From NCBI RefSeq assembly GCF_000685865.1, contig NZ_JMKS01000003.1:372001-436000 (forward strand): a DNA stretch of 64,000 nt, written 5' to 3'. This document shows positions 44,006 through 62,238 of the stretch, one piece after another. Every line of letters begins with the position of its first letter. Position 1 is the stretch's first letter. The notes under the pieces are model-generated. The model was not told the origin of the DNA. It was given only the letters and a program-made list of their open reading frames with translations, and made no database searches. The position numbers and the translations under genes are program-made. The stretch comes from Exiguobacterium antarcticum DSM 14480 (GTDB taxonomy: Bacteria; Bacillota; Bacilli; Exiguobacteriales; Exiguobacteriaceae).

Positions 44006-44064
44006 CAGTATCACGCTCTTTTCATTCTTTTTCGACCAGTCTTACTGGCATTATCTTTTAGTAT

Positions 44065-44105
44065 AACGAAAAACAAGTGCTTCTCCGAGTCGGAAAAACA
44101 CTTGT
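44065..44105 (-). terminator. Terminator after pilO
   Basis: ACAAGTGTTTTTCCGA pairs with the opposite arm ending AAGCACTTGT, followed by TTTTCG on the minus strand. Confidence 0.78.
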
Positions 44106-44112
44106 CTACTGT

Positions 44113-46577: not shown

Positions 46578-46595
46578 ATGTAGATTCTTCCTTTC

Positions 46596-47351
46596 CTAGA
46601 GGAACAGATCGAGATAAAGCTTTATCCAATCGTCCGCAAAGTAATATGTCAGTAACGTGCCGATTGCAATCGACGGGACAAACGGGATCGGTTGTTTCCG
46701 TTCGACTCGTTTTAAGCCAAGCAACGTCAGTCCGATGATCGAACCGACAAAAGCGGAGACGAACAACGCGATGACGACGTAGAGTGGACCTAAAAAAATC
46801 CCGAGGATCCCAAACAGCTTGACGTCGCCTGCCCCCATTCCTTGACGTGAGGCAAGAAAGATCACGAACAATAGAAAGAATCCGACGAATCCGCCAATAA
46901 TTGGATTATACCAGTTCTCAAGGGGAGAAAGGTAGCGAACAATCAGACTAATCGGTAAAAAGAATAATAAGATTTTATTCGGAATCAGCATGTAGGCAAG
47001 ATCGGACATGACGAGGATGCTGAGCAGACTCGTCAACAGAATCGACAGGACAAATTGCATCGACCAGCCGAATTGATAAAAGGCATAGGCATACAGGATG
47101 CCGCCAAGCAATTCAAGCGCCGGATACTTGATCGAAATCGGTAACTGGCACGTCCGGCATTTCCCGCCCAGCACGACATAACCGACGACAGGTGTCAGTT
47201 CAAGCGGTCCGAGGACATGACCACAGTTCGGACAATGGGACCGCGGACGGACGATTGATTCCCCGACCGGTACCCGTAAGCCGACGACGTTCGTAAATGA
47301 GGTCACAAGCATTCCAATCAGAAAAAAGTAAACGGTGAAAACGATAGTCAT
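46596..47351 (-). CDS. pilD: Prepilin peptidase / N-methyltransferase (A24)
   Basis: Aspartic membrane protease that cleaves and methylates prepilins. The 251-residue protein has the N-terminal methylase domain with paired cysteines C40/C43 (CPNC) and C65/C68 (CRTC), several TMs and the two catalytic aspartates D117 (MSDLAYMLIPN) and D176 (GMGAGDVK). AAGGAGG precedes the ATG, after a terminator that follows the pilin gene. It occupies the locus of B. subtilis comC and probably processes all four pilin-like proteins encoded here. Confidence 0.93.
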   Translation of the reverse strand: MTIVFTVYFFLIGMLVTSFTNVVGLRVPVGESIVRPRSHCPNCGHVLGPLELTPVVGYVVLGGKCRTCQLPISIKYPALELLGGILYAYAFYQFGWSMQFVLSILLTSLLSILVMSDLAYMLIPNKILLFFLPISLIVRYLSPLENWYNPIIGGFVGFFLLFVIFLASRQGMGAGDVKLFGILGIFLGPLYVVIALFVSAFVGSIIGLTLLGLKRVERKQPIPFVPSIAIGTLLTYYFADDWIKLYLDLFL

Positions 47352-47379
47352 CGTGCGTTCCCTCCTTAAAAAAGTTCAG

Positions 47380-47401
47380 AAAAAAACCCCCGAGATGGGG
47401 G
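47380..47401 (-). terminator. Terminator between the pilin gene and pilD
   Basis: CCCCC pairs with GGGGG around a 5-base loop, followed by T7 on the minus strand. It would let the major pilin mRNA accumulate well above downstream genes. Confidence 0.82.
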
Positions 47402-47407
47402 TGGATA

Positions 47408-47935
47408 TTACTTTTCTTTGATTGCAGAACGCTTTAGTGCTCCTGGATCTACACCTTCAAAATAGTCATAATCCGTTGAATCACTTGTTAAAGTAACTTT
47501 ATATTCATAAGTTCCATTTTCTTCTGTCACAACAACAAATGAATCTTTGTAGGCTGCATCAGAATTCAATGAATCTTTCATTTCATCGATGTATTTTTCC
47601 AAAGTATCGACTCGTGGAGCTGCTGCAGTTCCTTTAGTCGTTGCTGTTGATGGAGTAATATTTTTCTTATCTTCTTTGATTCCGAGCTTCACTACTTCTC
47701 CAGGTTGAACAGGATTAGACGATGTATACAATTTTGCCGCTGCAACCAATTGTTTCGCATCGGATACAACCGCATCCTTACGTGAGTTCTCGATCAATCC
47801 GCCGATTGCGACGACAGCGATTGCTGCGATGATTCCTAAGATAACGACAACAACGAGTAACTCGATCAAAGTCAAGCCGCGCTCGTCACGCATTTGTTTA
47901 GCATCTAACCAGATCTCTTTTAGGCGTTCTAACAT
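47408..47935 (-). CDS. pilA: Major type IV pilin
   Basis: Prepilin of 175 residues. The leader is 20 residues, cleaved at ERG|LTLIELLVVVVILGIIAAIA, with Glu at +5 (E25) and Leu rather than Phe at +1. The globular domain is Lys/Thr/Asp-rich and has no cysteine pair. GGAGG lies upstream, and its own promoter carries an inverted repeat. Base composition changes inside the gene: about 34% GC over 47461-47700 (globular part) but 48% over 47761-47940 (N-terminal part), by hand count. The preceding terminator and promoter suggest high expression. Confidence 0.92.
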   Translation of the reverse strand: MLERLKEIWLDAKQMRDERGLTLIELLVVVVILGIIAAIAVVAIGGLIENSRKDAVVSDAKQLVAAAKLYTSSNPVQPGEVVKLGIKEDKKNITPSTATTKGTAAAPRVDTLEKYIDEMKDSLNSDAAYKDSFVVVTEENGTYEYKVTLTSDSTDYDYFEGVDPGALKRSAIKEK

Positions 47936-48004
47936 GTTTATTATTCCTCCCTAGTACTTTTTTACTGTTTCTGGCGTATAGGTCATACTGTCCAGATGAA
48001 TACT

Positions 48005-48051
48005 ATTATAGTAGCACCATATTTTTTGTAGAAAATGTATTTTTTCTACAA
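48005..48051 (-). promoter_or_regulatory. Promoter of pilA with overlapping inverted repeat
   Basis: Consensus TATAAT (48005-48010) with TCTACA as -35 (48027-48032) at 16 bases on the minus strand. A perfect 10-bp inverted repeat, TTGTAGAAAA / TTTTCTACAA with a 6-base centre, spans 48026-48051 and covers the -35, so it could be an operator. It has no T-run and is not a good terminator for pilC. Confidence 0.62.
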
Positions 48052-48073
48052 CAGGTAAATGTTTTGACAGTTG

Positions 48074-49291
48074 TCAACTTGCTTGGATGTCGGAGTAAAT
48101 CTTGAACATCGGCACGACGACGGCGATGACGATGACACCGACGATGACGGCCAGAACGACGATCAGTAACGGTTCGATGATCGACTTCAGGCGGTCGGTC
48201 GTCGTTTCCACTTCCGTCTCATAAAAGTCAGCGACTTCGGTCAGCATCGAGTCGAGTCGTCCTGACTCTTCCCCAATCGCAATCATCTGTGTCACGAGGG
48301 GTGGAAAGTACTTGTTTTTCGCTAACGGTTCATGCATCGGGATACCACGCGACATCGCTTCGTTCGCTGCAGCAATCCCCTTTCGGATGACCCGGTTCGT
48401 CACGATCCGTTCCGTGATGTCGAGTGACGTAAGAATCGGAACCGAGGCATTGAGTAAAACGGCCAGTCCACGCGTCATGAGCGCAATCTGTGACTTTTGA
48501 ATCAATGGACCAAATACCGGAATCATCAGTAACAAACGATCAAAGATGACGCGTTGGCGTTCGTTCTTCAAGTTGAAGTACAGCAACCCAAGCAGGCCAA
48601 AGGCAATCAGTAACAACACCCACCAGTAAGCGACAAAAAAGTCAGATACGGCGACGACGATTTTGGTAATCAGGGGAAGTTCACTGCCAAGCTGATCAAA
48701 AATCGAAGCAAACGTCGGGACGACATTCAGCATCAAGAAGACGACGACACCGATTGCGACGACCGAAACGACCGCCGGATAAATCAAGGCCGAGATGACC
48801 TTCCGTTTGATTTCGTATTGCTTCTGAAGTTGGGTGACGATATTATCGAGTGCTTCCTCCAAGTTACCGCTTGCCTCCCCTGCCATGGCCATACTGACGA
48901 AAAACGTATCAAAGACACGTGGATGTTTTTCGATTGCTTGCGAAAACTGGACACCGCTGCGTAAGTCATCCTCGACTTCGACAAGTGCCCGTTCGAGTGG
49001 TTTCGAGTCGGTCTGTTTGCGTAGAATCTCCGTCGCTTTGACGATCGAGACGCCGGACCGGACGAGTGTTGCGAACTGGCGGGCATACATGACCAGATGT
49101 TCGATTTTGGGTTTTGCCGTTAAAAATGTAATCTCTGTATTTAATCCTTTTGACTCTTGTTTCTCGAGTAACGTCACGGCAATCTGATCCGTCCGCAACC
49201 GCTCCGCCGCTTCTCGCTTCGTCAAGGCCGTAATCTTGCCTTTTTTTCGTTTGCCGGTCATCGTTCGACCTTCGTATTTGAAGACTGTCAT
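48074..49291 (-). CDS. pilC: Type IV pilus inner-membrane platform protein PilC
   Basis: Polytopic GspF-family protein of 405 residues that couples the ATPases to pilin assembly. Two T2SSF repeats are visible, each with FxRxLatLLxsGv-like starts (MYARQFATLVRSGVSIVKA and MTRGLAVLLNASVPIL) and the signatures AMAGEASGNLEEAL and IGEESGRLDSML, with TMs at about 170-195, 220-240 and 375-398. CGGGGTGA lies upstream, overlapping the pilT stop. Confidence 0.94.
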   Translation of the reverse strand: MTVFKYEGRTMTGKRKKGKITALTKREAAERLRTDQIAVTLLEKQESKGLNTEITFLTAKPKIEHLVMYARQFATLVRSGVSIVKATEILRKQTDSKPLERALVEVEDDLRSGVQFSQAIEKHPRVFDTFFVSMAMAGEASGNLEEALDNIVTQLQKQYEIKRKVISALIYPAVVSVVAIGVVVFLMLNVVPTFASIFDQLGSELPLITKIVVAVSDFFVAYWWVLLLIAFGLLGLLYFNLKNERQRVIFDRLLLMIPVFGPLIQKSQIALMTRGLAVLLNASVPILTSLDITERIVTNRVIRKGIAAANEAMSRGIPMHEPLAKNKYFPPLVTQMIAIGEESGRLDSMLTEVADFYETEVETTTDRLKSIIEPLLIVVLAVIVGVIVIAVVVPMFKIYSDIQAS

Positions 49292-49295
49292 GGAT

Positions 49296-50339
49296 TCACC
49301 CCGATATGTAAGGTGTCGCGGCAGATGCTGGGATCAAGCCACGACTTACTAAGTCTTGTAATGCCATCTGCATCGTCTGCATTCCGTACTGTTTTCCCGT
49401 TTGTAAGACGGATTGAAGCTGATACTCTTTCCCGGTCCGAATCAAGTTCGAGACAGCAGGTGTTTCGACCATGATTTCCAGTGCGGCAACACGTCCCGTG
49501 CCGTCTGTTCGCGGCATCAAACGTTGCGACACGACGCCGGCTAAGACATTTGCCAGTTGCGCCCGAATTTGATCTTGCTGCTCCGACGGGAACACATCGA
49601 TGATTCGACTGACGGTCGAGGCCGCCGTCGACGTATGGACGGTCGCAAACACCAAGTGGCCGGTCTCGGCTGCCGTGACCGCGGTCGAAATCGTCTCGAG
49701 GTCACGCATCTCACCAAGTAAAATGACATCCGGATCTTGCCGGAGGGCAGATCGTAAGCCGGTCGCAAAACGCGGCGCATCGATGCCGATTTCCCGTTGG
49801 TCAATCAGACTTTTCTGGTGGCTATGTAAATACTCAATCGGATCTTCGAGCGTGATGATGCGTTTATACATCGTCTGGTTGATTTCATTGATCATCGCGG
49901 CCAGTGTCGTCGATTTCCCGGAGCCCGTCGGACCTGTCACGAGAATCAAGCCATGTGGTTTCGTCAGAAAACGTTTTAAGACCGGTGGTAACGCTAATTG
50001 TTCAAGCGTCGGGACTTCGGTCGGAATCGTCCGAAACGCCATCGACAAGGCGCCGCGCTGATAAAAACAATTAACACGATACCGCGCCACTCCCGTCACC
50101 CCAAATGAAAAATCAATGTCCCGATCCTGTTTTAACTGCAGAAACATTTCCTCGGTAATAAGGGAGCGAACGAATCCTTCGATGATGATCGGTTTCATTT
50201 TGTCTGTTCCGAACGGTGTCAGCGTTCCGTTAATCCGAAAGACCGGCGGTGACCCCGCCGTCAGATGAACGTCAGATGCTTCTTTTTCTTTCGACGATCG
50301 TAAGATATCTTCAATTTGGGCACGTTCCATCGTACTCAT
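49296..50339 (-). CDS. pilT: Twitching-motility retraction ATPase PilT
   Basis: Hexameric ATPase that disassembles pili. The 347-residue protein has an N-terminal PAS-like domain (ASDVHLTAGSPPVFRINGTL), Walker A GPTGSGKST (136-144), Asp box ITLEDPIEYLH, Walker B DVILLGEMRDLET and the His box TGHLVFATVHT; PilT-type AIRNLIRE is represented by SNLIRTGK. It overlaps pilB by four bases (ATGA) with no clear ribosome-binding site. Its presence implies retractile pili rather than only a competence pseudopilus. Confidence 0.94.
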   Translation of the reverse strand: MSTMERAQIEDILRSSKEKEASDVHLTAGSPPVFRINGTLTPFGTDKMKPIIIEGFVRSLITEEMFLQLKQDRDIDFSFGVTGVARYRVNCFYQRGALSMAFRTIPTEVPTLEQLALPPVLKRFLTKPHGLILVTGPTGSGKSTTLAAMINEINQTMYKRIITLEDPIEYLHSHQKSLIDQREIGIDAPRFATGLRSALRQDPDVILLGEMRDLETISTAVTAAETGHLVFATVHTSTAASTVSRIIDVFPSEQQDQIRAQLANVLAGVVSQRLMPRTDGTGRVAALEIMVETPAVSNLIRTGKEYQLQSVLQTGKQYGMQTMQMALQDLVSRGLIPASAATPYISG

Positions 50340-52000
50340 TCGGAAATCACCGTCCGGAGGATTTCTTCCGTCGTCGTGATTCCTTGTGCGACTTTGGCTA
50401 ATCCATCAGCCAACAATAAACGTTGTCCTTGTGATCTTACATACATCGTGATTTCACTCTCCGTTGACTGGTTCATGATCATCCGCCGTAAGCTTTCATC
50501 CACCATGACGACTTCCTGAATCGCCAGACGTCCCCGGTAACCCGTCATATTACACGATGAACAGCCGCGTCCCCGCATGACGGTTGTCGCTGAAATCCCT
50601 TCTTGGGCAAATAATTCTTCTTCCCGTTTCGATAACGGTTGGACTTCGCCACAATCGCGGCACACCCGGCGGACAAGACGTTGGGCAATCAGTCCCGTGA
50701 CGGATGCGGCGACCAGGAACGGTTCTACCCCCATGTCGATCAATCGAGTGATCGAACTGACGGCAGAGTTCGTGTGTAGCGTCGACAGGACGAGGTGACC
50801 GGTTAGTGAGGCCCGGATCGAAATCTCCGCTGTCTCGATGTCACGAATCTCCCCGACCATGACGACGTTTGGATCCTGCCGTAAGATCGAACGGAGCCCA
50901 CTTGCAAATGTCAGACCGATTTTCGAGTTGACCTGCACCTGATTGATGCCATCGACTTGATACTCGACTGGATCTTCGACGGTGATGATGTTCCGTGTCT
51001 CGTCATTTAGTTCATTTAAGGCCGCATACAACGTCGACGACTTTCCGGACCCGGTTGGTCCCGTGATCAAAATGATACCGTTCGGTCGCTTCAGCATCTC
51101 ACGAAATTGGTGTTCGTTTCGTTCGCTGAATCCGATTTTTGCAATCGAGATGTTGGAGTTCGAACTATCAAGAATCCGAATGACGACTTTTTCGCCGTAG
51201 ACGGTTGGTAACGTCGACACCCGGAAGTCATACGCGACGCCGTTATACAGAAACTTAATCCGTCCATCCTGGGGTAACCGGGATTCCGTAATATCAAGCT
51301 CACTCATGACTTTGATCCGGGTCGTCAAAATATTTTGGATCTGTTTCGGATAGTTGTTTTCCGTCCGTAATTCACCATCAATCCGAATCCGGATCGATAG
51401 GGATGTTTCTTGTGGATCCATATGGATATCCGATGCCCGTTGTGAAATACCGTTCTCCAGCATTTGATTGACCAAACGGATGATCGGAGCATCTTCACGG
51501 GTCACCGTATCGCGTGATGTATCCGAAATCATCATCTCATCCGACTCGAGCAATTCCCGTAATGAAGAATCAATGTCATAATACTTTAAGATCGTCCGGC
51601 GAATTTCGTCGCGTGTCGCAAGCCCTACTTCGATCATTAACCCTGTCTGAAGACGTAAATCATCGATGGCAATCAAGTCCATCGGGTCTGCCATCGCGAT
51701 GAACAGGCGGTTCCCCTCACGGTAAACCGGGACAAGCGTATGCCGTTGAGCGAGTTCTTTTGAAATCAGTTTCGTCACGGCGACATCGACCGGGTAGTTA
51801 TACAGTTGGATGACGGGAATCTTAAGTTGATGGTGCAACGCTTCAATCAATTGTTGTTCCGTTAAGTGGCCGAGTCGTAATAACGTGTCTCCTAGTTTTT
51901 CCGTCGTCCGCTTGACGGATAACGCTTCCTCGATCTGCGCTTCCGTCACGACACTTTCTTCTAACAGCATTTCACCTAACCGTTTTCGTTTCATTGCCAT
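50336..52000 (-). CDS. pilB: Type IV pilus assembly ATPase PilB
   Basis: Extension ATPase of the GspE/PulE/PilB family, 554 residues. N-terminal MshEN domain (KRLGEMLLEESVVTEAQIEEAL, about 7-150), which in relatives can bind cyclic di-GMP, then Walker A GPTGSGKSS (314-322), ITVEDPVEYQ, Walker B NVVMVGEIRDIETAEI, His box TGHLVLSTLHTN and a four-cysteine zinc site (CRDC...CSSC, about 449-488). AAGGATG lies 11 bases before the ATG. Confidence 0.95.
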   Translation of the reverse strand: MAMKRKRLGEMLLEESVVTEAQIEEALSVKRTTEKLGDTLLRLGHLTEQQLIEALHHQLKIPVIQLYNYPVDVAVTKLISKELAQRHTLVPVYREGNRLFIAMADPMDLIAIDDLRLQTGLMIEVGLATRDEIRRTILKYYDIDSSLRELLESDEMMISDTSRDTVTREDAPIIRLVNQMLENGISQRASDIHMDPQETSLSIRIRIDGELRTENNYPKQIQNILTTRIKVMSELDITESRLPQDGRIKFLYNGVAYDFRVSTLPTVYGEKVVIRILDSSNSNISIAKIGFSERNEHQFREMLKRPNGIILITGPTGSGKSSTLYAALNELNDETRNIITVEDPVEYQVDGINQVQVNSKIGLTFASGLRSILRQDPNVVMVGEIRDIETAEISIRASLTGHLVLSTLHTNSAVSSITRLIDMGVEPFLVAASVTGLIAQRLVRRVCRDCGEVQPLSKREEELFAQEGISATTVMRGRGCSSCNMTGYRGRLAIQEVVMVDESLRRMIMNQSTESEITMYVRSQGQRLLLADGLAKVAQGITTTEEILRTVISE

Positions 52001-52008
52001 TTACGTCG

Positions 52009-52323
52009 TCATCCTTCCGCATGCCATGTTTCTTCTTCGTCAAGTGGCGTCAACTGCTGTTTTTTTTCATCAACGGCACTCGTAATCGCTGTGACGATTA
52101 AAATCGTCATCACATATCCTGCGATGACAAACGGATTCGTCATCCAGTCGAACTTCACTAATAAATAAAGCGCAACCACTAATAGCAACGCGGTTAATGA
52201 CAAAATTACTTTCGTCAATGTCGTCGCGACAAACGGAATTTGAATCGCAAACATCAACCCACAAATGATTGTTGCGAGACCAATGATGATACCCAGCTCA
52301 ATCGCTAGATCCGTCCAATTCAT
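52009..52323 (-). CDS. Small three-helix membrane protein in the pilus operon, unknown function
   Basis: A 104-residue protein with three hydrophobic helices (about 6-27, 35-56 and 62-86) and an acidic C-terminus. No family is recognised. The ATG at 52323 was chosen because AAGAGGG lies 7 bases upstream. It sits between the VanW-related gene (24-base gap) and pilB (8-base gap), so it is co-transcribed with the assembly machinery and may be a platform accessory. Confidence 0.8.
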   Translation of the reverse strand: MNWTDLAIELGIIIGLATIICGLMFAIQIPFVATTLTKVILSLTALLLVVALYLLVKFDWMTNPFVIAGYVMTILIVTAITSAVDEKKQQLTPLDEEETWHAEG

Positions 52324-52347
52324 AGCCATCCCTCTTTTCTTCTAGTA

Positions 52348-53730
52348 TCAACCAACAGCGCCTTCCGTCGAATCATCTTCGACTGGTGACGCCGGGTCCC
52401 CGGTCGTCGGCGCGTCTGGTGTATCCGGTGCCGTCGGTTGATCCGGCGTCGTTGGCGTGTCTGGTGTCGTTGTCCCATCATTCGTTGTTCCATCGTTTGT
52501 TGTTCCATCCGTTGAATCATCTGTCATCCCATCGGAATTTGGTGTCGTGTCCTCTTCCGTCGTACTATCCGTCGAATCGTCGACGGGATCGTCAGCCGGT
52601 GGCGGTGTCACGACAGGCGGTAATTCTTCTTGGCTACTCTTCGTGACGATGGCTGGCGTTGCCGAGTAAAAGTCGAGTGCCAGCAACTGTTTGACTTCTC
52701 CTTGATTGGATTTCGTAACGCGATACAATTCAATCGATTTCCCTTCGGCGCCTGATTGGGTATCACTGCTCGTTCCAGCAGATAACGTCGCCGAATACCG
52801 GGTAATCGTGCGGTACGGAATCATTTTTTCTGCTTCGAGCACAGCAGTGACCGTCTCTTTGAATGGTGTCCCACGTAGTTCAAGTGTGACATCACTGCCA
52901 TTTTTCGTTGCGATGACTTGGTAGTTGACGGCTTGTGTGTTCCGGACAGCAAAATCCGTTTTATCATCAATCTTGACGTCGTACCCTAGTGTCAGATCGT
53001 CCGGCAGTTGGGCATGTGGCATCCGTTCGACGATCTCAAATGGTGTTTTCGCAAACAATTCGTACAGTTTACTTCCGATGTACGACGCGGCGACAGGGTC
53101 CATCCCATACGTCTTGACATTCATCAATTGTCCAGCCTTGATATCAACTTGCGCCATCGCATCAATCATTTGTTCTTCCGCTGCTGAGCGGGTCATGAAC
53201 GTGACACTTGAGACGACTTCTCCTGCCGGATCGATGGCCGCTGCCGTCTCTGCCGGATCAAAATTACTTTCCTCAAGTTTTTCACTTGTTTTGATTAACC
53301 AGGTCTTGAATGTCTTGATTTGCTCGTCTGTATATGTAATCGGTTGTGTGGCTAAATAAGCTTCCGTCGCCGCTTCATCGACGATCACTTGCAACGCGCC
53401 GCCCTTTTTTAAGGACGCTGCTTTAATCGAGTCCTCAATCTTAAACGTCACTAGCTCGGTTGGGATCGGTAACGTCTCTTCCCCCGTCCCGACCGTCAAC
53501 GGTGTTTTTTTCGACCAAGAGGTAACCGCTTCTTGGACTTTCGGTTTTGCTTCTTTACGTGTCAAACCACTGACCGGTACAGAACCGATTCGGGCCGTCT
53601 CCGAAAAGTTTTCAGCGACTGTTGCTTTTCCGGTAAAGGAAATCAAGGCAAACGAAGGAACATAGATTAAGGCAATTAAGGCGACTAACAACAACGTATG
53701 TACAGCAAAACGTTTTAAATTTATCATCAT
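52348..53730 (-). CDS. VanW-related membrane-anchored extracellular protein
   Basis: A 460-residue protein with an N-terminal membrane anchor (about 8-32), a domain with the SVPVSGLTRKEAKPKVQEAV pattern seen at the start of VanW and peptidoglycan-binding proteins, and a segment FEIVERMPHAQLP plus TDFAVRNTQAVNYQV that matches the core of the VanW domain. The usual GGGxCQ..TTLY motif is replaced by ASYIGSKLY, so the cysteine is missing. The last 90 residues are low-complexity Pro/Thr/Asp. The ATG at 53730 has AAAGGAAACAG in front. First gene of the operon leading into pilB; no LPXTG anchor is seen. Confidence 0.72.
   Translation of the reverse strand: MMINLKRFAVHTLLLVALIALIYVPSFALISFTGKATVAENFSETARIGSVPVSGLTRKEAKPKVQEAVTSWSKKTPLTVGTGEETLPIPTELVTFKIEDSIKAASLKKGGALQVIVDEAATEAYLATQPITYTDEQIKTFKTWLIKTSEKLEESNFDPAETAAAIDPAGEVVSSVTFMTRSAAEEQMIDAMAQVDIKAGQLMNVKTYGMDPVAASYIGSKLYELFAKTPFEIVERMPHAQLPDDLTLGYDVKIDDKTDFAVRNTQAVNYQVIATKNGSDVTLELRGTPFKETVTAVLEAEKMIPYRTITRYSATLSAGTSSDTQSGAEGKSIELYRVTKSNQGEVKQLLALDFYSATPAIVTKSSQEELPPVVTPPPADDPVDDSTDSTTEEDTTPNSDGMTDDSTDGTTNDGTTNDGTTTPDTPTTPDQPTAPDTPDAPTTGDPASPVEDDSTEGAVG
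52469..52513. repeat. 15-bp tandem repeat in the VanW-related gene
   Basis: Three imperfect tandem copies of a GTTGTTCCATCNTTN-like unit (52469-52483, 52484-52498, 52499-52513) encode Asn-Asp-Gly-Thr-Thr repeats in the low-complexity tail. In-frame copy-number change would alter tail length. Confidence 0.75.
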
Positions 53731-53777
53731 CTGTTTCCTTTCCGTATGAAATAACCATTTCAGGTGTCTAGTATTTC

Positions 53778-53787
53778 CATTATAATG
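53778..53787. promoter_or_regulatory. Palindromic -10 region between the two divergent pilus operons
   Basis: CATTATAATG is self-complementary, so TATAAT reads on both strands (plus 53781-53786, minus 53779-53784). Both -35 regions are weak, which would fit activator control. A second plus-strand candidate is CTGACA at 53814-53819. Confidence 0.5.
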
Positions 53788-53902
53788 AATATTATGATGA
53801 AACATAAGTCCTACCTGACAAATACTTTCTTCATGTGTGAATACATACCGTTTTTCATTTTCTAGTTCAGACATCCTATTGATTCAGACACGAGGTGAGT
53901 CC

Positions 53903-54427
53903 ATGCAAGACAAGCAAGATGGGTTTTCGTTAATTGAAGTGTTAGTCAGCATTACGATTTTATCGATTATTTCCGTATCTTTAATCAGTATCTTTTCACA
54001 GTCCCTTGCAGCGTCACGGGATAGTACCGAATTGACGTTTGCCAATTACTTAGCGAAGAATGCCGCCTCCTACATCGAGCGAGAAGCCATCGAGACAGAA
54101 TCCGGCCCGTTTGTTTTTGATGATTTGAAGGAACAAGCACAACAAACGATTTATCAGAATGGTACTTTTGAAATACCGACGCCGAACACGCCGTCATGTG
54201 GTGTATCGGCTATTTGCGACTCAATCTTCAACGATGCTGAAATAAATAATCTACCGTTCGATGTGAAGTTCAGTGTCACGCCTCATAAGATTAATGGTGA
54301 AAACGATCCAAATCTGCTTGATCTGTATATTTATGTCTATCCGGACGGACAACCGGAGCCGATTACGTCTTTGAAAGGATCGATCACCAATGCGACGCTT
54401 AATCAAAGTTTTCCCTCAACGAAATGA
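53903..54427 (+). CDS. Minor type IV pilin (PilV/GspI-like)
   Basis: Prepilin of 174 residues. Short leader cut at QDG|FSLIEVLVSITILS with Glu at +5 (E12), followed by the hydrophobic stem, then a globular domain with a Cys pair in CGVSAIC. GAGGTGAGTCC precedes the ATG at 53903; an upstream in-frame ATG lacks a ribosome-binding site and would give a leader of 29 residues. First gene of a three-gene plus-strand operon. In homologous systems such proteins form the tip-priming complex. Names such as PilV are by position and leader only. Confidence 0.85.
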   Translation: MQDKQDGFSLIEVLVSITILSIISVSLISIFSQSLAASRDSTELTFANYLAKNAASYIEREAIETESGPFVFDDLKEQAQQTIYQNGTFEIPTPNTPSCGVSAICDSIFNDAEINNLPFDVKFSVTPHKINGENDPNLLDLYIYVYPDGQPEPITSLKGSITNATLNQSFPSTK

Positions 54428-54995
54428 TGGATTTTCGCTCGTCGAGCTGCTTGTCGCCATCGTCATTGCTGCTATTTTCAGTGCCGTCATTTTGACGGTA
54501 TTCATCTCCGGGACAAAAAGTTTTCAAGCAACCGGTATCATCAGTGAATTGCGGAGCGAAGCAGACAGCTCGGTTGGTTTGATATTAAATGAAATCACAG
54601 GGTTTGATGCCATCCGGATCGACCAAGCAAACAAACTCGCATTCTACAAAAAAACGTTGCCAAGTCTCAGTCAAACAACCGGCTTACTTGAACGGTCGGC
54701 TGGCTTCGTCCCGTATAACGCGAATCAAGAAGATGTGGTCGAGCCTGTTACATATAAATTCGACGATAAACAAACAGAACAAACGACCTTGATTTATAAC
54801 AGTCCAGTCGAAATCATCAATGAGCAGACGAGCATGCAAAAAGCGTTTACCCTGTCACGTCCGGAAACGGTCACGATTACGACAGGGGATTACCCCGGTG
54901 TCTATGTGGTCCACGGTATCTTAACGATCACGTTGACCATTCAGTCCAACGATCAAGAAGAAACACAGACACTTACGAGTACGATTGGCTTCTAA
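54390..54995 (+). CDS. Minor type IV pilin (PilW/GspJ-like)
   Basis: Prepilin of 201 residues, leader cut at NDG|FSLVELLVAIVIAAIFSAV with Glu at +5 (E19). The 14-residue leader is basic (MRRLIKVFPQR). It overlaps the previous gene by 38 bases; AAAGGATCG lies 7 bases upstream inside it. The globular domain has no clear family. The length is in the range of PilW/GspJ subunits that follow the initiating subunit at the pilus tip. Confidence 0.85.
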   Translation: MRRLIKVFPQRNDGFSLVELLVAIVIAAIFSAVILTVFISGTKSFQATGIISELRSEADSSVGLILNEITGFDAIRIDQANKLAFYKKTLPSLSQTTGLLERSAGFVPYNANQEDVVEPVTYKFDDKQTEQTTLIYNSPVEIINEQTSMQKAFTLSRPETVTITTGDYPGVYVVHGILTITLTIQSNDQEETQTLTSTIGF

Positions 54996-55012
54996 GGCAG
55001 AAAGGATGACTT

Positions 55013-56581
55013 ATGCGAAAATCCGAAGAAGGTTATACCTTATTATTTGTATTGGTCACACTGACCGTTCTATCCGTGCTGGCAGTCGCGACGATTGGAA
55101 TCAGTCTTCAATCCACACGACTGACAGAAATTCGTGGGACGAACATCGAAGTCGAATCAGCGACACAAAGTGAATTGAACCAAGCAATCGCCGCCTTGCA
55201 GCAAATCGTCGCGACGACCGACGGCATTAATCCGTCCAGTTCTTCCAAGGAACTGTTTGCCGATCCGAAAAATCGAATCATTTTACCACTGGCAACGTCA
55301 GCCCCCAATGTCACCGTTGAATTAAATGAAGCCGCCTCGAATGTCCGGGTCAAGGCATTTGATTTGACCGCCCAAGTGGAAGAAACAAAAGGTGACCAAC
55401 CGACCGTCCGAAAAACGTATTCCCAACGTGTCTACCTATCGGCGATTCCCAGTTTTCTTTATTACATTTTAGGTTCCGATAACCAGGTGATTCTAAATGG
55501 CGCGCCACGCATTCAGGGAAATGTCTTCTCACGTAATCCGTTGCAAGTCTCAGCAAGTCCAAATTTCATTTATAATGGCGCAACAGGTACCTACACTGAT
55601 AAAAATGCCCGGTCCTATATTGATGGTCAGGTTAAAGTGTTTCAACCAAAGGATCAGCCGTTACTAACTTGTCGTGACTTCATCACGTGTGACAGCTCGG
55701 TGTTTGATCCGACAGTCAAAACTGATTTGATTGCTACCAAAGAATCATTAGTTCCATTTGATTTCGAGTTTGCCTTAAACGATTTTTTAGACATTCCGAG
55801 TACGACACCACTTGCGACAGTAGCAACGTATTTACGCACTCAACCCATCGAACAAGCGATTTTGACAGGACCATTTTTAAATGAACTCAGCACGGATAAA
55901 CAACTGATTCGACCTGCTCCGACAGAAAACAATACGGTGACGATTACGGACGACATCGTCAAAGCATCGACTGAACCGCTCATCATCGATGGCAACTTGA
56001 CGATTTCTTCGCTCAATCCGATTGATCAGCCTCTCGAAATCAAACGTCCCATCATCGTCCTTGGTAATTTATTGATTCGGGGCAATGTCAGTTTTGCGAC
56101 GACGATGTTTTCAACCGGGACAAGTCGTCTTGACGATGCGAATATCCAAGGCATTACGAGTTCGACCAGTCAAAACACGTTGATTTTACTCAGTAAGGGG
56201 AGTCTGACGATTAACCGGGTCAATAAATTTTCAACACCACAGACTACAAAACCTGACATGAGTGCTTTTTTATACAGTGATGATACAAAACTGAATCGGA
56301 TTTATTCCGTCGGTTCGACGATGAATCTGCAAGGTGGCATTTTCACAAAAGGCAGTCTTGAAGTCAATGCGTACCGGGGTACACTCGATTTACCGGAAAA
56401 CAGTTTCCCGCAAGACGTTCGTGCACTCGAAACCTTAATGAAAACGAAACAGGCAGCAGATGCGGAAAAGTCACGGCTTCGTTTGACCTATGATGCCAGT
56501 GTGCTTCAAAATCCAACGGCGATGCTACCACTCAGCCGTGCCGTCCAGCTCTATGTCGAAACACCAAAACGACTTCCATGA
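55013..56581 (+). CDS. Large pilin-like protein without Glu+5 (PilX/GspK-like), 522 residues
   Basis: Class III signal EEG|YTLLFVLVTLTVLSVLA, but position +5 is Phe (F12) instead of Glu, the trait of GspK-type tip subunits that have no pilin beneath which to lock. Only the N-terminal 30 residues look pilin-like; the 490-residue ectodomain contains ILGSDNQVILNGAPRIQGNVFS, CRDFITCD and a beta-rich segment LIIDGNLTISSLNP...IIVLGNLLIRGNVSF resembling beta-solenoid repeats. AAAGGATGACTT precedes the ATG. Last gene of the minor-pilin operon, closed by a terminator. Confidence 0.83.
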   Translation: MRKSEEGYTLLFVLVTLTVLSVLAVATIGISLQSTRLTEIRGTNIEVESATQSELNQAIAALQQIVATTDGINPSSSSKELFADPKNRIILPLATSAPNVTVELNEAASNVRVKAFDLTAQVEETKGDQPTVRKTYSQRVYLSAIPSFLYYILGSDNQVILNGAPRIQGNVFSRNPLQVSASPNFIYNGATGTYTDKNARSYIDGQVKVFQPKDQPLLTCRDFITCDSSVFDPTVKTDLIATKESLVPFDFEFALNDFLDIPSTTPLATVATYLRTQPIEQAILTGPFLNELSTDKQLIRPAPTENNTVTITDDIVKASTEPLIIDGNLTISSLNPIDQPLEIKRPIIVLGNLLIRGNVSFATTMFSTGTSRLDDANIQGITSSTSQNTLILLSKGSLTINRVNKFSTPQTTKPDMSAFLYSDDTKLNRIYSVGSTMNLQGGIFTKGSLEVNAYRGTLDLPENSFPQDVRALETLMKTKQAADAEKSRLRLTYDASVLQNPTAMLPLSRAVQLYVETPKRLP

Positions 56582-56586
56582 CATAC

Positions 56587-56625
56587 AAAAACACGACATC
56601 CTTGAACATGAGGGTGTCGTGTTTT
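56587..56625. terminator. Bidirectional terminator between the 522-residue pilin-like gene and the ankyrin gene
   Basis: AAAAACACGACATCC pairs with GGGTGTCGTGTTTTT across a 10-base loop, serving both convergent operons. Confidence 0.88.
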
Positions 56626-56628
56626 TGG

Positions 56629-57318
56629 TTACTGAAATGATTGTGCTCCATAGGCTGTTGCTAATTTCTTTACTTGTTTTTGACTCACTGATGCCCCACT
56701 TATTTCTAACAATTGATACAAGTCTGTCCGGTTTTGTTTAACCGTCTCATAAATCGGTGGATCGGTTCCCTTGTCCGGTTCAGCACCCGCCGCAAGGAGC
56801 AGCTCGATTGCTTCTTGATTTTGGTCGACTGTCGCATAATAAAGCGGTGTATGACCAAATCGATCCAGTTGATTCAACTGACTTTTGGAAGCTTGTTTGA
56901 CGAGTAACGCATAGGCATCAACAGAACGATTGATGCTCGTTGCGACATGTAGGACATTTTGTTTGTTCGCATTCACTTGTTTTGTTGAAGCCCCTGCCCC
57001 TAACCATTGTTTGACGATATCGGTTGGCGCGAACTGAGCGACATAAAACCAATTTTGTTGATTTTTAGCACTTGCCCGATTTAGCAAAACAAGTGCTTTA
57101 TCGTATTCGAGTGACTCTTGAAACTGTCGAATGTATCGATTACGATCTTTCGTCGACAAACTGACGTCTTCGACGGCTTGTTCCAATACTTTTGGACTTT
57201 TGGACGTTAGGCTGTCTTCAAACGTTTGTTGATTTCGATAATCGACTAACAGATACGTCGTTGCTCCGATTCCAATCAAGAACAGGAGAACGACGATCAT
57301 GATTTTTTTTCGTGTCAC
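56629..57318 (-). CDS. Membrane-anchored ankyrin-repeat protein
   Basis: A 229-residue protein with an N-terminal anchor (TM about 6-25, KIMIVVLLFLIGIGATTYLLV) and an external or lumenal ankyrin region: NVLHVATSINRSVDAYALLVK and RFGHTPLYYATVDQNQEAIELLLAAGAEPDKG are clear units, with two weaker ones. Ankyrins bind proteins. It begins with GTG behind AAAGGAG at 8 bases, and starts 15 bases after the 1193-residue secreted protein gene, so the two may act together. Confidence 0.85.
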   Translation of the reverse strand: MTRKKIMIVVLLFLIGIGATTYLLVDYRNQQTFEDSLTSKSPKVLEQAVEDVSLSTKDRNRYIRQFQESLEYDKALVLLNRASAKNQQNWFYVAQFAPTDIVKQWLGAGASTKQVNANKQNVLHVATSINRSVDAYALLVKQASKSQLNQLDRFGHTPLYYATVDQNQEAIELLLAAGAEPDKGTDPPIYETVKQNRTDLYQLLEISGASVSQKQVKKLATAYGAQSFQ

Positions 57319-57333
57319 GTCGCTTGCTCCTTT

Positions 57334-60300
57334 TTAATACACATCGGTATCACTTTCTCCTGTCGATCCTTCAGATGAAATCGTCACTTTAAACGTCGTC
57401 GTCAACGGCTGTTTCTCCGTCGTTCCTTCTTTGATTACTTCAAAGATGTCTTTATTTTCTTTTAATGCCGTGACTTTAATTCGTGCGACGCCTGGTCGAA
57501 GTGCTTTTAAGGTCTGAGCGGTCGCATCCGTCTTGACGTATTCTTTCCCTTGTAAAACTTCCAAACGATAGAAACGTTCTGTTGTCGTGATGGGTAACCA
57601 GTTGAGGAGTGGACGTTTTTGATCATCCTGTAACGTCATCGTCAAATCGTTTGCCGTCAAGGTCACTGGGTTTTCCCGCACGTTAATTTTCGTAATGGCG
57701 CGTGTATCCGGGAAATCTTTTAACTGTAACAGCGCATCTACTGGTCCCGCCGGTGTGCCTTTGATTCCTTTGACGGTATATCCTGTATTGGTCTCTATCA
57801 ATTCAATCGCATCACTGACTTTTGAGAGGACATACGGCAAACGAATGTCTGGCGCGAACGATGCAGTCACGTTTTGTGTCGTCCCGGCCCATAGTTCAAG
57901 ATTACTTGGGCTGACAGACAGTTCCGGTACCTTGACTTCAATCGTATAGACTTGAGATTGTGCTAAATACGTCGCCGTTCCAGTTGACGCTGGAACAACG
58001 GCTTTGACCGTCATTATGCCAGGTTTGAGTCCTGTCAATGTTAACGATTCCTGATCAAGTCCTTTTGCCTGCGCCAGTGTATCATTTGTAACGATCCATT
58101 TGATCGGAGCATCGGTTCCCGATAACATGATGGCGTCACCGGTCATCGACTTCGTCTGACCGACATACAAAACGCTTGGTACATCGCGGACAATCAATCC
58201 ACCAAACACGTCATTCACTGTCAGCTTCGAGGTCGTCACCAACTCACGTCCGTTTGCGACCGGAACGATCAATTTAATATCCGTCGTGCCGATTTTTTTC
58301 GGGATGATGATCCCTTCTTGATTAATCGAAGCTATATTCGAATCTTCAATCGACCATCTTAACGTTCCGTATTGACTACCAGCTGGGCTGATTTCCGGTA
58401 ATACTTTATACGAAGGAGTATTGATATCGATCCGAACCGCTGGAATTTTTGCCTCCGTCGCATATCGTGTCGATAAAGCATACCCGAGTGTCGGGAAAGC
58501 TTGTGTGTCGTTTACAACTGATTTTGATTTATCGACCCCATTTTTCTTGTCACGATAAACGGTTTTCGTCGAACTCATCGTATTATCTTTTTTATCAAAC
58601 ACGTGAACCCCAGCCGCATCCTTCGCCCGGACTTTTACAGTAAAGGTCAACTCGGACGGTTTTGCGATCCAGAGTCCTTTTTGAACACCTGCGATGGCTT
58701 CGTCGTATTCGATATCCGGAACATCACCCGTTAATGTTTGATTCACAATCTTCACGTTACCGAGTCCAGTCGTTGAGACGACCTCGACATTTGTCGGGAA
58801 GTTTTCGCTAAACAGGATATCTTCCATCGTGACAGAGAATTGACCCATGATATACCCATTGTTTCCGATGGCATCTTTTTGAGACATCGGGCTTGTTCGA
58901 ATCGTATACGTGATATCTGCCGTTTCTCCTTGCGGGATCGTCGCGGGATCAATCGAACGGGATAATGTGAAGGGAGAGGATGCAGACGGTTGGACGACTT
59001 GGATCGTCCGCTCTTCCACCGTTTTAGCACCACGCTGGTCTTCTGCCTCGATTCGAATTTTCGCAGATGTTTTTCCTGCCAGTTTTCCATTAAACGTTTC
59101 ACTGACAAATGAATTATTCTTTAATTTATCGTTCTCATATACCTTTTCATCATCAATATAGATTCGGGTCTTCAGTTGTCGGTCACGTAAATCATAATCA
59201 TTGACTTTATACGAAATCGTCAGCGGTTCATTGTCTAAATAACTTGCTTGGCTGTCCGGCAAGATATTTTTAAGGAGCGGTTTGTGATTCGCTCCAATGA
59301 AGGCACGATACATCGTATTCGAGAACAATTCTTTTTCTTGTTGTTGGTTGAATGTCGTAGTATGCCCTGCACCAGAATACGTGACATTCCCTTTTGTATA
59401 CATATAATAATGATTTCGGGCGTCACCAATTGTTCGTCCAGCTGACTGGTTGGAATCGGCAACACTATTTTCACGAATGTTGTACCACGGGATTAAATCT
59501 GGTTGTTCAAGATCAAGTCCAAAATATTGATTATGCGTCGTTGCGATTTTGACATCGTTTCCTAATGTAAACGGATATGAAGTCATGACACCCTCATTTT
59601 GTTTAACCGCTTGCCCTGACGTTCGAGGCGCACCGTATCCCATATTCGTAAAGTTTTTTTGCCCCGCCAGTCCAGCAAACTTCTTTTCCCAAAACAGTTC
59701 AGGGCTTGCCGATTGACTCGGGCGGAAAATCGTATCATGAGACAACATCAATCCTTGCCCCGTGTTCGTAAACCCAAGGATTGCATTTGAGGCATCATCG
59801 CTCAGCGATGCCGCTCCATACGAATCTTGGAACCCGAAGATCAGCATATCGTACGCCGTATTTAAATTTTTAGACGGATACGTTTTATTGAATACATCTG
59901 CTGTGATGACTTCGACGTTAAAGTCATAAAAACCATCTTGCTTCAGTAACGTTCCCGTATTCATGAATCCATTGATCGATCCAGTCGTACCCGTTCGCGT
60001 CACTTGAAGGATCTTCGCTTCCGCGACCTGATCCTTCATCAAAAAGCTGCCGGTTTTATAATCGGTCAAACCGTCACTGCTTGATACACGAATCATCCAG
60101 TTCCGCGGACCGGTGTAACTTGGCGCGTCAAAGTTATAGCTTAGCGTGCCGGTTTTCCCTGCCGGTTTCTCATCGACTTTTTCTGACTCTTCAAATTGAT
60201 CGTTGCTGTCAAAATCAATATACAATTGTGCGAGCTGATTCGTATTGTCCACGCTCGTCGTATACGTGAAATCAATTGGTACGTTCGGAACAGCTGTTGT

Positions 60301-60915
60301 CGCTTTATCAACTCCGGTCAATGCCGTTCCCTGTTGCTGAACAGAGACACGTTCGAGACGGGGACGAATGATTTTTTGTACCTTCAATTTTGTTATGACC
60401 GCCGTCATATCGGTATACGTAGGGATACCTTTAAAGACTGCATTAAAATTACTTGACGTCTGCGCCAAAACATCCTGATGTAAAAAGACCGGTAATCCTT
60501 TTTGGATATAAGCACCATAGATTTCATTCGCCTTCAGCTTTGTAATATCATTTTCGATTTTATTCGTATTATGATTTTTTTTCGTATCCGAGATTGTCAT
60601 CGAATAGCGGTCTGTTCCTGAAAAGGCAGACGGATCAAACACAATCGCATCAAATGCACCGTCTAAAGGAAAACGCGATGCATTCAATTCTTTGACTGTC
60701 ATCATCTTGATCTCGAACTGATTTTTGTCAAGACCCGTCAACATCGAATTCACTACTGTACTCGGATCAATCCGGTTCGTCGCCGACCAGGCATCCCGCA
60801 CTTCCAGAATCCTAAACTTCTCTCCAGTTGCAGCTTTTGTATGTGGTGGTTGTATATACGTAATACTGGTAAAGATCAATAGACTGACTAAAAACAGACG
60901 TACCCAACGCTTCAT
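57334..60915 (-). CDS. Large secreted protein with flavodoxin/GATase-like modules and Ig-like domains, 1193 residues
   Basis: Signal peptide at residues 1-28 (cut near HTKA|ATG). Two alpha/beta modules follow: about 33-190 (FRILEVRDAW ... FDAIVFDPSAF) and about 300-530 (KILQVTRTG ... AYDMLIFGFQDSYG, GQGLMLSHDTIF), resembling the DUF5057 type of Bacillus surface proteins (tentative). From about 540 on there are beta-rich Ig-like domains, including Big-2-like ones near 940-1060 (SVLYVGQTKSMTG, LKPGIMTVKAVVPA). No LPXTG motif, TM or S-layer domain is evident at the C-terminus. GAGGAG precedes the ATG. It lies between folC and the pilus genes and may be an adhesin or pilus-associated cargo; function unknown. 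Confidence 0.8.
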   Translation of the reverse strand: MKRWVRLFLVSLLIFTSITYIQPPHTKAATGEKFRILEVRDAWSATNRIDPSTVVNSMLTGLDKNQFEIKMMTVKELNASRFPLDGAFDAIVFDPSAFSGTDRYSMTISDTKKNHNTNKIENDITKLKANEIYGAYIQKGLPVFLHQDVLAQTSSNFNAVFKGIPTYTDMTAVITKLKVQKIIRPRLERVSVQQQGTALTGVDKATTAVPNVPIDFTYTTSVDNTNQLAQLYIDFDSNDQFEESEKVDEKPAGKTGTLSYNFDAPSYTGPRNWMIRVSSSDGLTDYKTGSFLMKDQVAEAKILQVTRTGTTGSINGFMNTGTLLKQDGFYDFNVEVITADVFNKTYPSKNLNTAYDMLIFGFQDSYGAASLSDDASNAILGFTNTGQGLMLSHDTIFRPSQSASPELFWEKKFAGLAGQKNFTNMGYGAPRTSGQAVKQNEGVMTSYPFTLGNDVKIATTHNQYFGLDLEQPDLIPWYNIRENSVADSNQSAGRTIGDARNHYYMYTKGNVTYSGAGHTTTFNQQQEKELFSNTMYRAFIGANHKPLLKNILPDSQASYLDNEPLTISYKVNDYDLRDRQLKTRIYIDDEKVYENDKLKNNSFVSETFNGKLAGKTSAKIRIEAEDQRGAKTVEERTIQVVQPSASSPFTLSRSIDPATIPQGETADITYTIRTSPMSQKDAIGNNGYIMGQFSVTMEDILFSENFPTNVEVVSTTGLGNVKIVNQTLTGDVPDIEYDEAIAGVQKGLWIAKPSELTFTVKVRAKDAAGVHVFDKKDNTMSSTKTVYRDKKNGVDKSKSVVNDTQAFPTLGYALSTRYATEAKIPAVRIDINTPSYKVLPEISPAGSQYGTLRWSIEDSNIASINQEGIIIPKKIGTTDIKLIVPVANGRELVTTSKLTVNDVFGGLIVRDVPSVLYVGQTKSMTGDAIMLSGTDAPIKWIVTNDTLAQAKGLDQESLTLTGLKPGIMTVKAVVPASTGTATYLAQSQVYTIEVKVPELSVSPSNLELWAGTTQNVTASFAPDIRLPYVLSKVSDAIELIETNTGYTVKGIKGTPAGPVDALLQLKDFPDTRAITKINVRENPVTLTANDLTMTLQDDQKRPLLNWLPITTTERFYRLEVLQGKEYVKTDATAQTLKALRPGVARIKVTALKENKDIFEVIKEGTTEKQPLTTTFKVTISSEGSTGESDTDVY

Positions 60916-60987
60916 TTCAATCGTCTCCTCGTCATAAGATCATAAAATCTAGGACTATATTACCCCACCTTTAGTATACAAGGACTT

Positions 60988-62238
60988 TTACTGTTTCCCC
61001 TTTTTTGTAAAAGACTGCTCCTTTAGTAATGCGCGGACCGTACTGATGAAATAGAGCGATCCCGTGACGGCCAGCGTGTGATCCGCTGTATCCACCTGTT
61101 TGAAAAAATGTTCGAGTTCTATCACATTTGCCCCGTCCGCGGTTAGTTCTTCTAACGTCCGCGCCCGTGGAAAATCAAACGTCGTCTCATAGATGTCTGG
61201 TGTCACTTCCCGCAACTGGTTGAGCATTGCTTCCCGGTCTTTATCCCGCAAGATCGAACACAACACGATGACCGGCTTCGTTTCTTCCTTCAATCGCTCG
61301 ACGAGTGCCGTGACACCTTCCGGATTATGGGCACCATCCAAGACAATCCGTGGTCGACGCGAGATGATTTCAAACCGCCCTGGATGTGTCGCATTACGTA
61401 GCCCACGCCGGATCGCCGTCTTCGACCAGCCCAGTTGTTTCGCACAGATGACGGCGTTCGCCGCATTGTGGACTTGATGAACACCTTCAAGCCCGAGTCG
61501 TGTCTCGGGAATCCCTTCATAGGTCGCCCACGTCCCCGTCGCATTCAACTGGTAGTCACGAATCACTTCCTGGCTCCACGTTAAAGTCGCTTGTCGATCG
61601 CCACAATAGGCCATCAACGGCACCGTCAATTCTTCTTGCAGTTTACCCGCAATGACGTTCGTTCCTTGTTTGATGATGCCAAACTTCTGTAACGCAATCT
61701 CTTGGAGCGTATCTCCGAGAATTGCTTGATGATCATGTCCGATTGACGTGATAATGGCCGCTTTCGGTTGTTTCAGGACATTCGTCGAATCGTACAAACC
61801 ACCGAGTCCAACTTCATAAATCACGAAATCAGGACGAATCCGATCAAAATGATAAAAGGCAAGTGCCGTCAACGCTTCGAATTCTGTTACAGTCCCAATC
61901 GTCGGCTCTAAGTTTATGATCGCTGCTTGCACGGCGATGGCGGCTTTGACAAGATCCGCTTCACTGATCGGGACGCCGTTTAACATGATTCGTTCTTCGA
62001 ATTGAATAATATAGGGGGAAGTAAACGTCCCGACCTGAAGTCCTTCCGCCACTCCCATCTCGCGTAAGAAGGCGACCGTCGATCCTTTCCCGTTTGTGCC
62101 CGCGACATGAACTGTCGGAATCGTATCGGGATCAATCTGTAATTCTGTTAACAAGGCTTGCATTCTGCTCAGTCCCGGTTTAATACCAAATGCCAGTAAT
62201 GCCGATAACCATTCGAGCACATCTTCCCGTGTTCTCAC
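60988..62238 (-). CDS. folC: Bifunctional folylpolyglutamate synthase / dihydrofolate synthase
   Basis: Mur-ligase-type ATP enzyme that adds glutamate to folates, 416 residues. P-loop VAGTNGKGST (44-53), EVGLGGLYDSTNVL with the usual Mg-binding region, SIGHDHQAILG, and the C-terminal domain ILDGAHNPEG (as IVLDGAHNPEG). Begins with GTG, AAGGAG 10 bases upstream; the ribosome-binding site follows the valS terminator almost directly. The valS-folC order is conserved in Bacillales. Confidence 0.95.
   Translation of the reverse strand: MRTREDVLEWLSALLAFGIKPGLSRMQALLTELQIDPDTIPTVHVAGTNGKGSTVAFLREMGVAEGLQVGTFTSPYIIQFEERIMLNGVPISEADLVKAAIAVQAAIINLEPTIGTVTEFEALTALAFYHFDRIRPDFVIYEVGLGGLYDSTNVLKQPKAAIITSIGHDHQAILGDTLQEIALQKFGIIKQGTNVIAGKLQEELTVPLMAYCGDRQATLTWSQEVIRDYQLNATGTWATYEGIPETRLGLEGVHQVHNAANAVICAKQLGWSKTAIRRGLRNATHPGRFEIISRRPRIVLDGAHNPEGVTALVERLKEETKPVIVLCSILRDKDREAMLNQLREVTPDIYETTFDFPRARTLEELTADGANVIELEHFFKQVDTADHTLAVTGSLYFISTVRALLKEQSFTKKGKQ

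Follow-up and report, generated by a model that had tools for sequence, protein, structure and literature searches.

The K-like gene and its pilus locus

The stretch of DNA analysed (the window, 64,000 nucleotides of Exiguobacterium antarcticum DSM 14480) carried a type IVa pilus set on the strand opposite to a row of three minor pilin genes. The set comprised a pilin gene together with PilM-like and, as we take them to be, PilB-, PilT-, PilC-, PilD- and PilO-like genes (Table 1). The third gene of the row encoded the K-like pilin (K), following an I-like and a J-like pilin. The I- and J-like genes overlapped by 38 nt and a gap of 17 nt separated the J- and K-like genes; because the genes overlap or abut, the arrangement was consistent with a single operon. 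The initial annotation had described a 522-residue protein with the pilin-like signal EEG/YTLLFVLV and Phe at +5, preceded by two minor pilins with Glu+5, and this description was borne out. The open reading frame began with MRKSEEG/YTLLFVLVT (Y+1 T+2 L+3 L+4 F+5) and continued for about 490 residues beyond its hydrophobic helix, and both upstream pilins exceeded the PF07963 cut-off in the window. The I-like pilin also matched the NCBIfam models PilV (E 1.1e-7) and gspI (E 7.8e-6), and the J-like pilin matched gspJ across residues 14-139 (E 0.0045), all under the respective cut-offs. In profile searches of the PDB, the best matches of J (E 0.027) and I (E 0.12) were pilins.

Table 1. Features of the pilus locus and its surroundings, in window coordinates
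Feature	Coordinates	Strand	Basis
PilO-like protein (presumed), 241 aa	44113..44838	-	position and topology; name presumed
PilM-like protein, 580 aa, C-terminal membrane segment	44835..46577	-	TIGR01175 pilM E 1.1e-7, under cut-off
PilD-like prepilin peptidase (presumed)	46596..47351	-	translation; name presumed
Probable major pilin, Glu+5, 175 aa	47408..47935	-	PF07963 E 1.4e-8
PilC/GspF-like platform protein (presumed)	48074..49291	-	translation; name presumed
PilT-like retraction ATPase (presumed)	49296..50339	-	translation; name presumed
PilB-like extension ATPase (presumed)	50336..52000	-	translation; name presumed
VanW/G5-like membrane protein, divergent to pilin operon	52348..53874	-	VanW E 1.8e-5, G5 E 1.3e-4, both under cut-off
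I-like minor pilin (PilV/GspI type), 174 aa, Glu+5, GFSLIEVLVS	53903..54427	+	PF07963 E 7.7e-8, over cut-off
J-like minor pilin (PilW/GspJ type), 201 aa, Glu+5, GFSLVELLVA	54390..54995	+	PF07963 E 2.8e-8, over cut-off
K-like pilin, 522 aa, Phe+5, predicted beta-solenoid ectodomain	55013..56581	+	sequence, conservation, predicted fold
Predicted beta-solenoid part of K-like pilin, residues 250-470	55760..56422	+	AlphaFold2 pLDDT 74.2, pTM 0.78
18-bp inverted repeat between K gene and convergent genes, likely shared terminator	56586..56627	.	MFE -27.4 kcal/mol, z -7.64
Ankyrin-repeat protein, N-terminal hydrophobic segment, 229 aa	56629..57318	-	Ank_2 E 1.1e-11
Large protein, probably secreted, 1193 aa, DUF5057, Big_2, acidic C-terminal tail ending in Tyr; proposed tip partner	57334..60915	-	Pfam, linkage, tail

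Downstream of K, the 18-bp inverted repeat is likely a terminator shared by the convergent genes, judging from its position and stability. It was not listed by the terminator scan, and consensus scans for promoters and terminators gave matches no commoner than in shuffled sequences; Rfam gave no match in 44000-62000. On the far side of the repeat, the ankyrin-repeat gene sat between K and the convergent gene for the 1193-aa protein. On the other side of the operon, the interval that separates pilB from the minor pilins in Exiguobacterium holds the VanW/G5-like protein and a 106-aa membrane protein (52009-52329). The PilM-like protein, with its C-terminal membrane segment and a coiled region, could represent a fusion of PilM and PilN. 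The pil locus was flanked by valS-folC and maf-radC-mreBCD-minCD genes (32916-63932). In Bacillus subtilis, the same genomic place presumably holds a lone prepilin peptidase gene, comC, and because comC would occupy that place it may be all that is left of a former pilus locus.

Of the six places in the genome at which PF07963 was found, three were the major, I-like and J-like pilins and the other three belonged to a com locus elsewhere; an H-like pilin was not found among the six. The ComGG of that com locus (L099:6519-6812; L-numbers are locus labels and f-numbers family labels of this analysis) carried Gln at +5, as expected for a tip subunit, and was thus a second pilin without Glu+5 in the genome. 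ComG minor pilins have been modelled at the tip (as described in PMC12153270), and E. sibiricum 255-15 was listed in 2011 as having a single pil operon and a single com operon (PMC3244431).

Conservation and architecture of the K-like pilin

The K-like protein was present in all 19 Exiguobacterium genomes searched (in two of them the match was split into two pieces of a single open frame), and Phe12, at +5, was invariant across the 19-row alignment; the copy of Exiguobacterium sp. KRL4 was 98% identical to that in the window. Profile A1 found relatives at E<=0.001 in 86 of 398 genomes of the class, representing 29 of 145 genera, and full-length relatives were spread over other families of Bacilli. 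With its presence throughout the genus, its invariant Phe+5 and its relatives in other families, the K-like reading frame is a real gene rather than a chance one. Most of the distant A1 matches came from the C-terminal half of K and so did not select for the residue at +5. A phylum search with profile A4 (217/398) was not taken as a count of K, as most of its matches covered the N-terminal pilin part only. No relative of K was found in viral contigs (one scan) or plasmids (one tblastn).

The residue at +5 was read at other loci. Thirty-eight regions were taken for diversity, and as two were other parts of the window's own genome, 36 loci remained, 35 of which were read (L091 was left out as truncated, and at L089 the reading frame picked by the profile was replaced manually with a pilin-like one nearby). 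Not one of the 35 full-length candidates carried Glu+5: 17 had Leu, nine Thr, three Met, three Val, two Asn and one Phe, the last (L097) being the Exiguobacterium gene L023 that was also counted among the 19. Homologues with Glu+5 had been named beforehand as an argument against a capping role, and none occurred among the K relatives examined. Directly upstream of K lay two Glu+5 pilins at 31 of the 36 loci, one at three and none at two. At two loci, a second pilin trio with an apparently Glu+5-less third member was located near the first (L080:1-1824, L148:6992-9474).

The position of K as third gene after I- and J-like genes, its lack of Glu+5 and its proposed capping function are shared with GspK of type II secretion systems and PilX/PilK of type IVa pili. 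K subunits are described as lacking Glu5 and capping the filament (PMC9934059, PMC10191384). Profile matches to these families were faint. NCBIfam T2SS_GspK was weakly matched by six of 43 K members (best 9.4e-6; family cut-off 130 bits) and PilX_N by one (1.9e-5). In the profile search proposed in the initial annotation, the window protein itself gave nothing over a cut-off: it grazed PF07963 at E 0.17 and PilX_N at E 0.088, in each case under cut-off, and had no GspK match in NCBIfam at E<=1. PF14341 (PilX_N) was matched in 11 of 101 genomes of the class and not in the window's own genome, and searching the PDB with the K sequence by itself returned nothing relevant. The suggestion that the trio resembles GspI-GspJ-GspK, with K as a cap, drew support from the order of the genes, from the presence of Glu+5 in the I- and J-like pilins and its absence from the K relatives examined, and from these weak GspK matches. 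The same resemblance would be expected if K were a pseudopilin of a secretion device instead of a pilus subunit, an explanation that we consider very unlikely, as a PilT-like retraction ATPase and PilM/PilO-like genes adjoin the operon.

The beta-solenoid-like segment noted at first reading was recovered in structure prediction. Residues 250-470, modelled by AlphaFold2 at the confidence given in Table 1, aligned best among beta-helix chains with 4phb (Cthe_2159; VIA-align Z 11.0, rmsd 4.3, 177 residues aligned), followed by haemolysin A (Z about 9), pectate lyases (about 8), ice-binding proteins (7.2-7.9), tapirin (7.6) and bactofilin (7.3); ComZ was absent among the matches listed. The prediction supported the folding of this segment alone as a beta-solenoid. 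Foldseek gave no match for it at E<=0.001. The AlphaFold2 model of full-length K, built with six close sequences, was unusable (pLDDT 43.8), and Foldseek likewise found nothing at E<=0.001 with this low-confidence model, the best match being an ice-binding protein (E 0.16). Among the 43 K members, Bactofilin was matched by two (best 2.8e-6) and an ice-binding-like domain by two (best 0.003). The likeness to the tapirins of Caldicellulosiruptor (6n2b), which are linked to pili, was one of fold only, and at Z 7.6 it falls in the range below 8 that may reflect a common arrangement. The literature search found no paper on a link between tapirins and pili.

The conserved core of the 43 members consisted of an LNGxPxIxGN motif near residue 163 and rungs at about 320-456, followed by a C-terminal stretch, SRLxxxYD..V..N....LP..V, that may lead back into the pilin sheet. 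These conserved columns agree with a beta-helical fold. Although the full-length model was unusable, this stretch after the rungs fits an insertion before the last strand of the kind found in ComZ of Thermus thermophilus. In the published description of ComZ, position 5 is Gly, the pilin domain is GspK-like, and its last strand is preceded by an inserted beta-solenoid; ComZ binds the neighbouring pilin PilA2 as well as DNA, and a tip position has been proposed for it (PMC6561018). Like ComZ, the K-like protein is large, lacks Glu+5 and combines a pilin-like part with a predicted beta-solenoid, and ComZ is its closest architectural precedent. By analogy, the Exiguobacterium protein most likely works as a cap in the same manner. 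K differs from ComZ in that its pilus locus is distinct from the com locus and its host is a monoderm.

Membership of the same architectural class as a DNA-binding protein (PMC6561018) raised the further prospect that K has the role suggested for ComZ and serves a transformation pilus as its DNA receptor. However, the genome has a comG locus elsewhere that encodes pilins of its own, and the K operon sits beside the PilB/PilT/PilM/PilO-like set. The sequence match to ComZ (6qvi) was also weak, at E 0.91 the third of four matches in the PDB search with profile A4, aligned at the LNG...G motif, and ComZ was not recovered from the PDB by profiles of the N-terminal or C-terminal part (A7, A8). We therefore regard a DNA receptor as unlikely.

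Comparison with other pili also separated K from known modular pilins. The insert of GspK is described as alpha-helical (PMC6561018, PMC8179133), in contrast to the beta-solenoid predicted for K. The PilABC operon of Streptococcus sanguinis likewise encodes three minor pilins of a monoderm pilus that form a tip complex with bulky modules, but there the Glu5-less subunit is the small I-like PilA, whereas here it is the large third subunit; S. sanguinis PilC has a canonical class III signal, Glu5 and a grafted module, where the window K protein has Phe+5 (PMC9934059, as far as it describes these subunits). Large modular pilins are known in monoderms (PMC8179133, PMC9934059), and K could by the same token be a modular minor pilin along the shaft with its solenoid as a side adhesin. 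All K relatives examined lacked Glu+5, whereas PilC of S. sanguinis keeps it (PMC9934059), and a bulky inserted solenoid would clash within the shaft, by the argument made for ComZ; a shaft location thus appeared quite improbable, even more so than a DNA receptor.

We therefore consider it probable, with good confidence, that K is the capping minor pilin (GspK/PilX/ComZ-like) of the Exiguobacterium type IVa pilus, with a beta-solenoid inserted in its pilin module. For this cap, we infer the following course from processing and assembly order to tip location, insertion topology and ligand. The PilD-like peptidase would cleave K after Gly7, and its helix would pack with the I- and J-like pilins of the same operon. 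Because Phe in place of Glu at +5 cannot neutralise the N-terminus of the subunit above, K would be laid down first and stay at the tip. Its ectodomain would consist of a pilin-like module (about residues 30-145 plus C-terminal strands) with the beta-solenoid (about 160-470) inserted as in ComZ. From its tip position, the solenoid would serve as a rigid platform contacting surfaces, DNA or a partner protein, and could so contribute to adhesion.

The convergently encoded secreted protein

The 1193-aa protein encoded convergently to K matched DUF5057 (E 3.9e-14) and Big_2 (E 3.6e-6) in Pfam, and its signal-peptide-like start, with no LPXTG, suggests that it is secreted. DUF5057 occurred in 50 of the 398 genomes of the class, and all 50 had a K match (46 by A1 and four more by A4). 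In 49 of them, the DUF5057 domain lay convergent to K on the same contig, 2.3-3.8 kb from the K match; in the fiftieth, the two were on different contigs, with K at the contig edge (base 35). By A1, K was found in 46 of 50 genomes with DUF5057 and in 40 of 348 without (Fisher p 1.6e-31, with kinship ignored, 28 of the 50 belonging to one family). In the phylum set, DUF5057 was found in seven of 398 genomes, three of them outside Bacilli, and one of these (G743) also had a K-profile match about 9 kb from the domain, the two sharing contig and strand.

A protein of at least 900 aa occupied the same convergent place in 20 of 30 downstream regions of relatives. For thirteen of the 20, BLAST showed homology to the 1193-aa protein along extended segments, and seven formed a vWA-domain group (six by Pfam, one by BLAST), with both the DUF5057 and the vWA kind present at that place within family f37. 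Homology over the whole length of the two types was rejected, because their N-terminal modules are not shared. What they do share is the Big_2 region and the C-terminal parts (BLAST; profile comparison E 3.7e-15 over 434 columns). In the window's own family (f1), some members had a 506-595 aa form of the partner; residues 221-513 of one (L133) aligned to 952-1246, the very C-terminus, of a long form (L131), and by this alignment the short form has lost its N-terminal part and kept the C-terminal half. The ten regions without a 900-aa neighbour included this short form, a 533-aa Big_2 protein at the partner place that ends in Trp (L145), five with GGDEF proteins, and three with nothing comparable (L146, L153, L158). 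The GAF/GGDEF or GGDEF proteins (L143, L147, L148 and L150 by Pfam, L156 by likeness) suggest, by their place beside K, that c-di-GMP signalling is tied to the pilus. In family f4, the partners (L134:6120-10718, L136:441-5081) carried a Pfam ice-binding-like adhesive domain (E 1.4e-42 and 8.5e-50), which is the same kind of solenoid as the K ectodomain resembles.

A C-terminal Tyr or Trp was present in 34 of 44 neighbours (the window and 43 others), and in 34 of 34, from six families, outside f12 and f22; for comparison, six of 259 reading frames of at least 250 aa from the same regions ended in Tyr or Trp, this background being of mechanical reading frames, some of which are not genes. The last residues were mostly rich in Asp, Gly and Asn (DDRY, GDRY, GDFY, NGWLY, GGRW, DSKW; SDTDVY in the window). 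The ten proteins of f12 and f22 had another tail, often VKAKxNLx. Since the end is conserved while the N-terminal modules are exchanged, it suggests the part that meets something constant, for which K is the obvious candidate.

These observations bear on whether K is mainly a docking platform that would carry the convergently encoded protein to the tip, where this protein would make the contacts as PilY1 does in diderms. This reading extends the capping explanation, and neither excludes the other. It is favoured by the near-constant pairing of DUF5057 with K, by the vWA-Big_2 proteins or shortened forms that often take the same place where DUF5057 is lacking, by the shared Tyr/Trp end, and by a signal-peptide-like start without LPXTG. 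Against it stand the different tail of f12 and f22, the GGDEF-type proteins in five of 30 regions and the three regions with nothing comparable, and the close kinship of many loci, owing to which the counts are not independent. On balance, we judge its prospects as slightly below even.

The partner resembles PilY1/PilC of diderms in being large, apparently secreted, non-pilin, encoded beside minor pilins and variable in its N-terminal module, vWA included. The PilY1/PilC beta-propeller family was absent from the Pfam matches of the window protein and 17 neighbours (four of them GGDEF proteins), and according to a passage of PMC9934059, monoderms lack PilC/PilY1. We propose that the 1193-aa protein docks on the K cap and is the analogue of PilY1 in a monoderm. 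In its fullest form, which we advance tentatively and hold somewhat less likely than the platform role of K, Bacilli would own a PilY1 counterpart with a core unrelated to PilY1, in which the N-terminal modules are swapped (DUF5057, vWA, an ice-binding-like adhesive domain, or none) and the C-terminal half and Tyr/Trp tail stay constant. The flexible, acidic or Gly-rich tail would dock on the beta-solenoid of the Glu+5-less K, making K a common socket and its neighbour a swappable tool; pilus assembly would carry the partner to the tip, and retraction would pull on it.

Implications for monoderm pili

As a pilin, K is a variant of the K/ComZ kind already known, and the larger find is the secreted partner tied to it. 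The initial annotation had looked to the K ectodomain for adhesion; the convergent secreted protein is a stronger candidate than the K solenoid for surface contact. The literature search (subscription papers being mostly outside it) found no paper mentioning DUF5057, and none on the pair of K and a secreted partner by title or abstract.

The question of how type IVa pili of monoderms adhere in the absence of PilY1 has so far been answered in print, as given in PMC9934059, by the modular minor pilins of S. sanguinis. A K cap with a genetically tied secreted protein recurs across families of Bacilli, and as the short C-terminal tail of the partner can be cut off, docking of an effector at the tip becomes a simple, testable prediction. 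If true, it would also provide a function for DUF5057.
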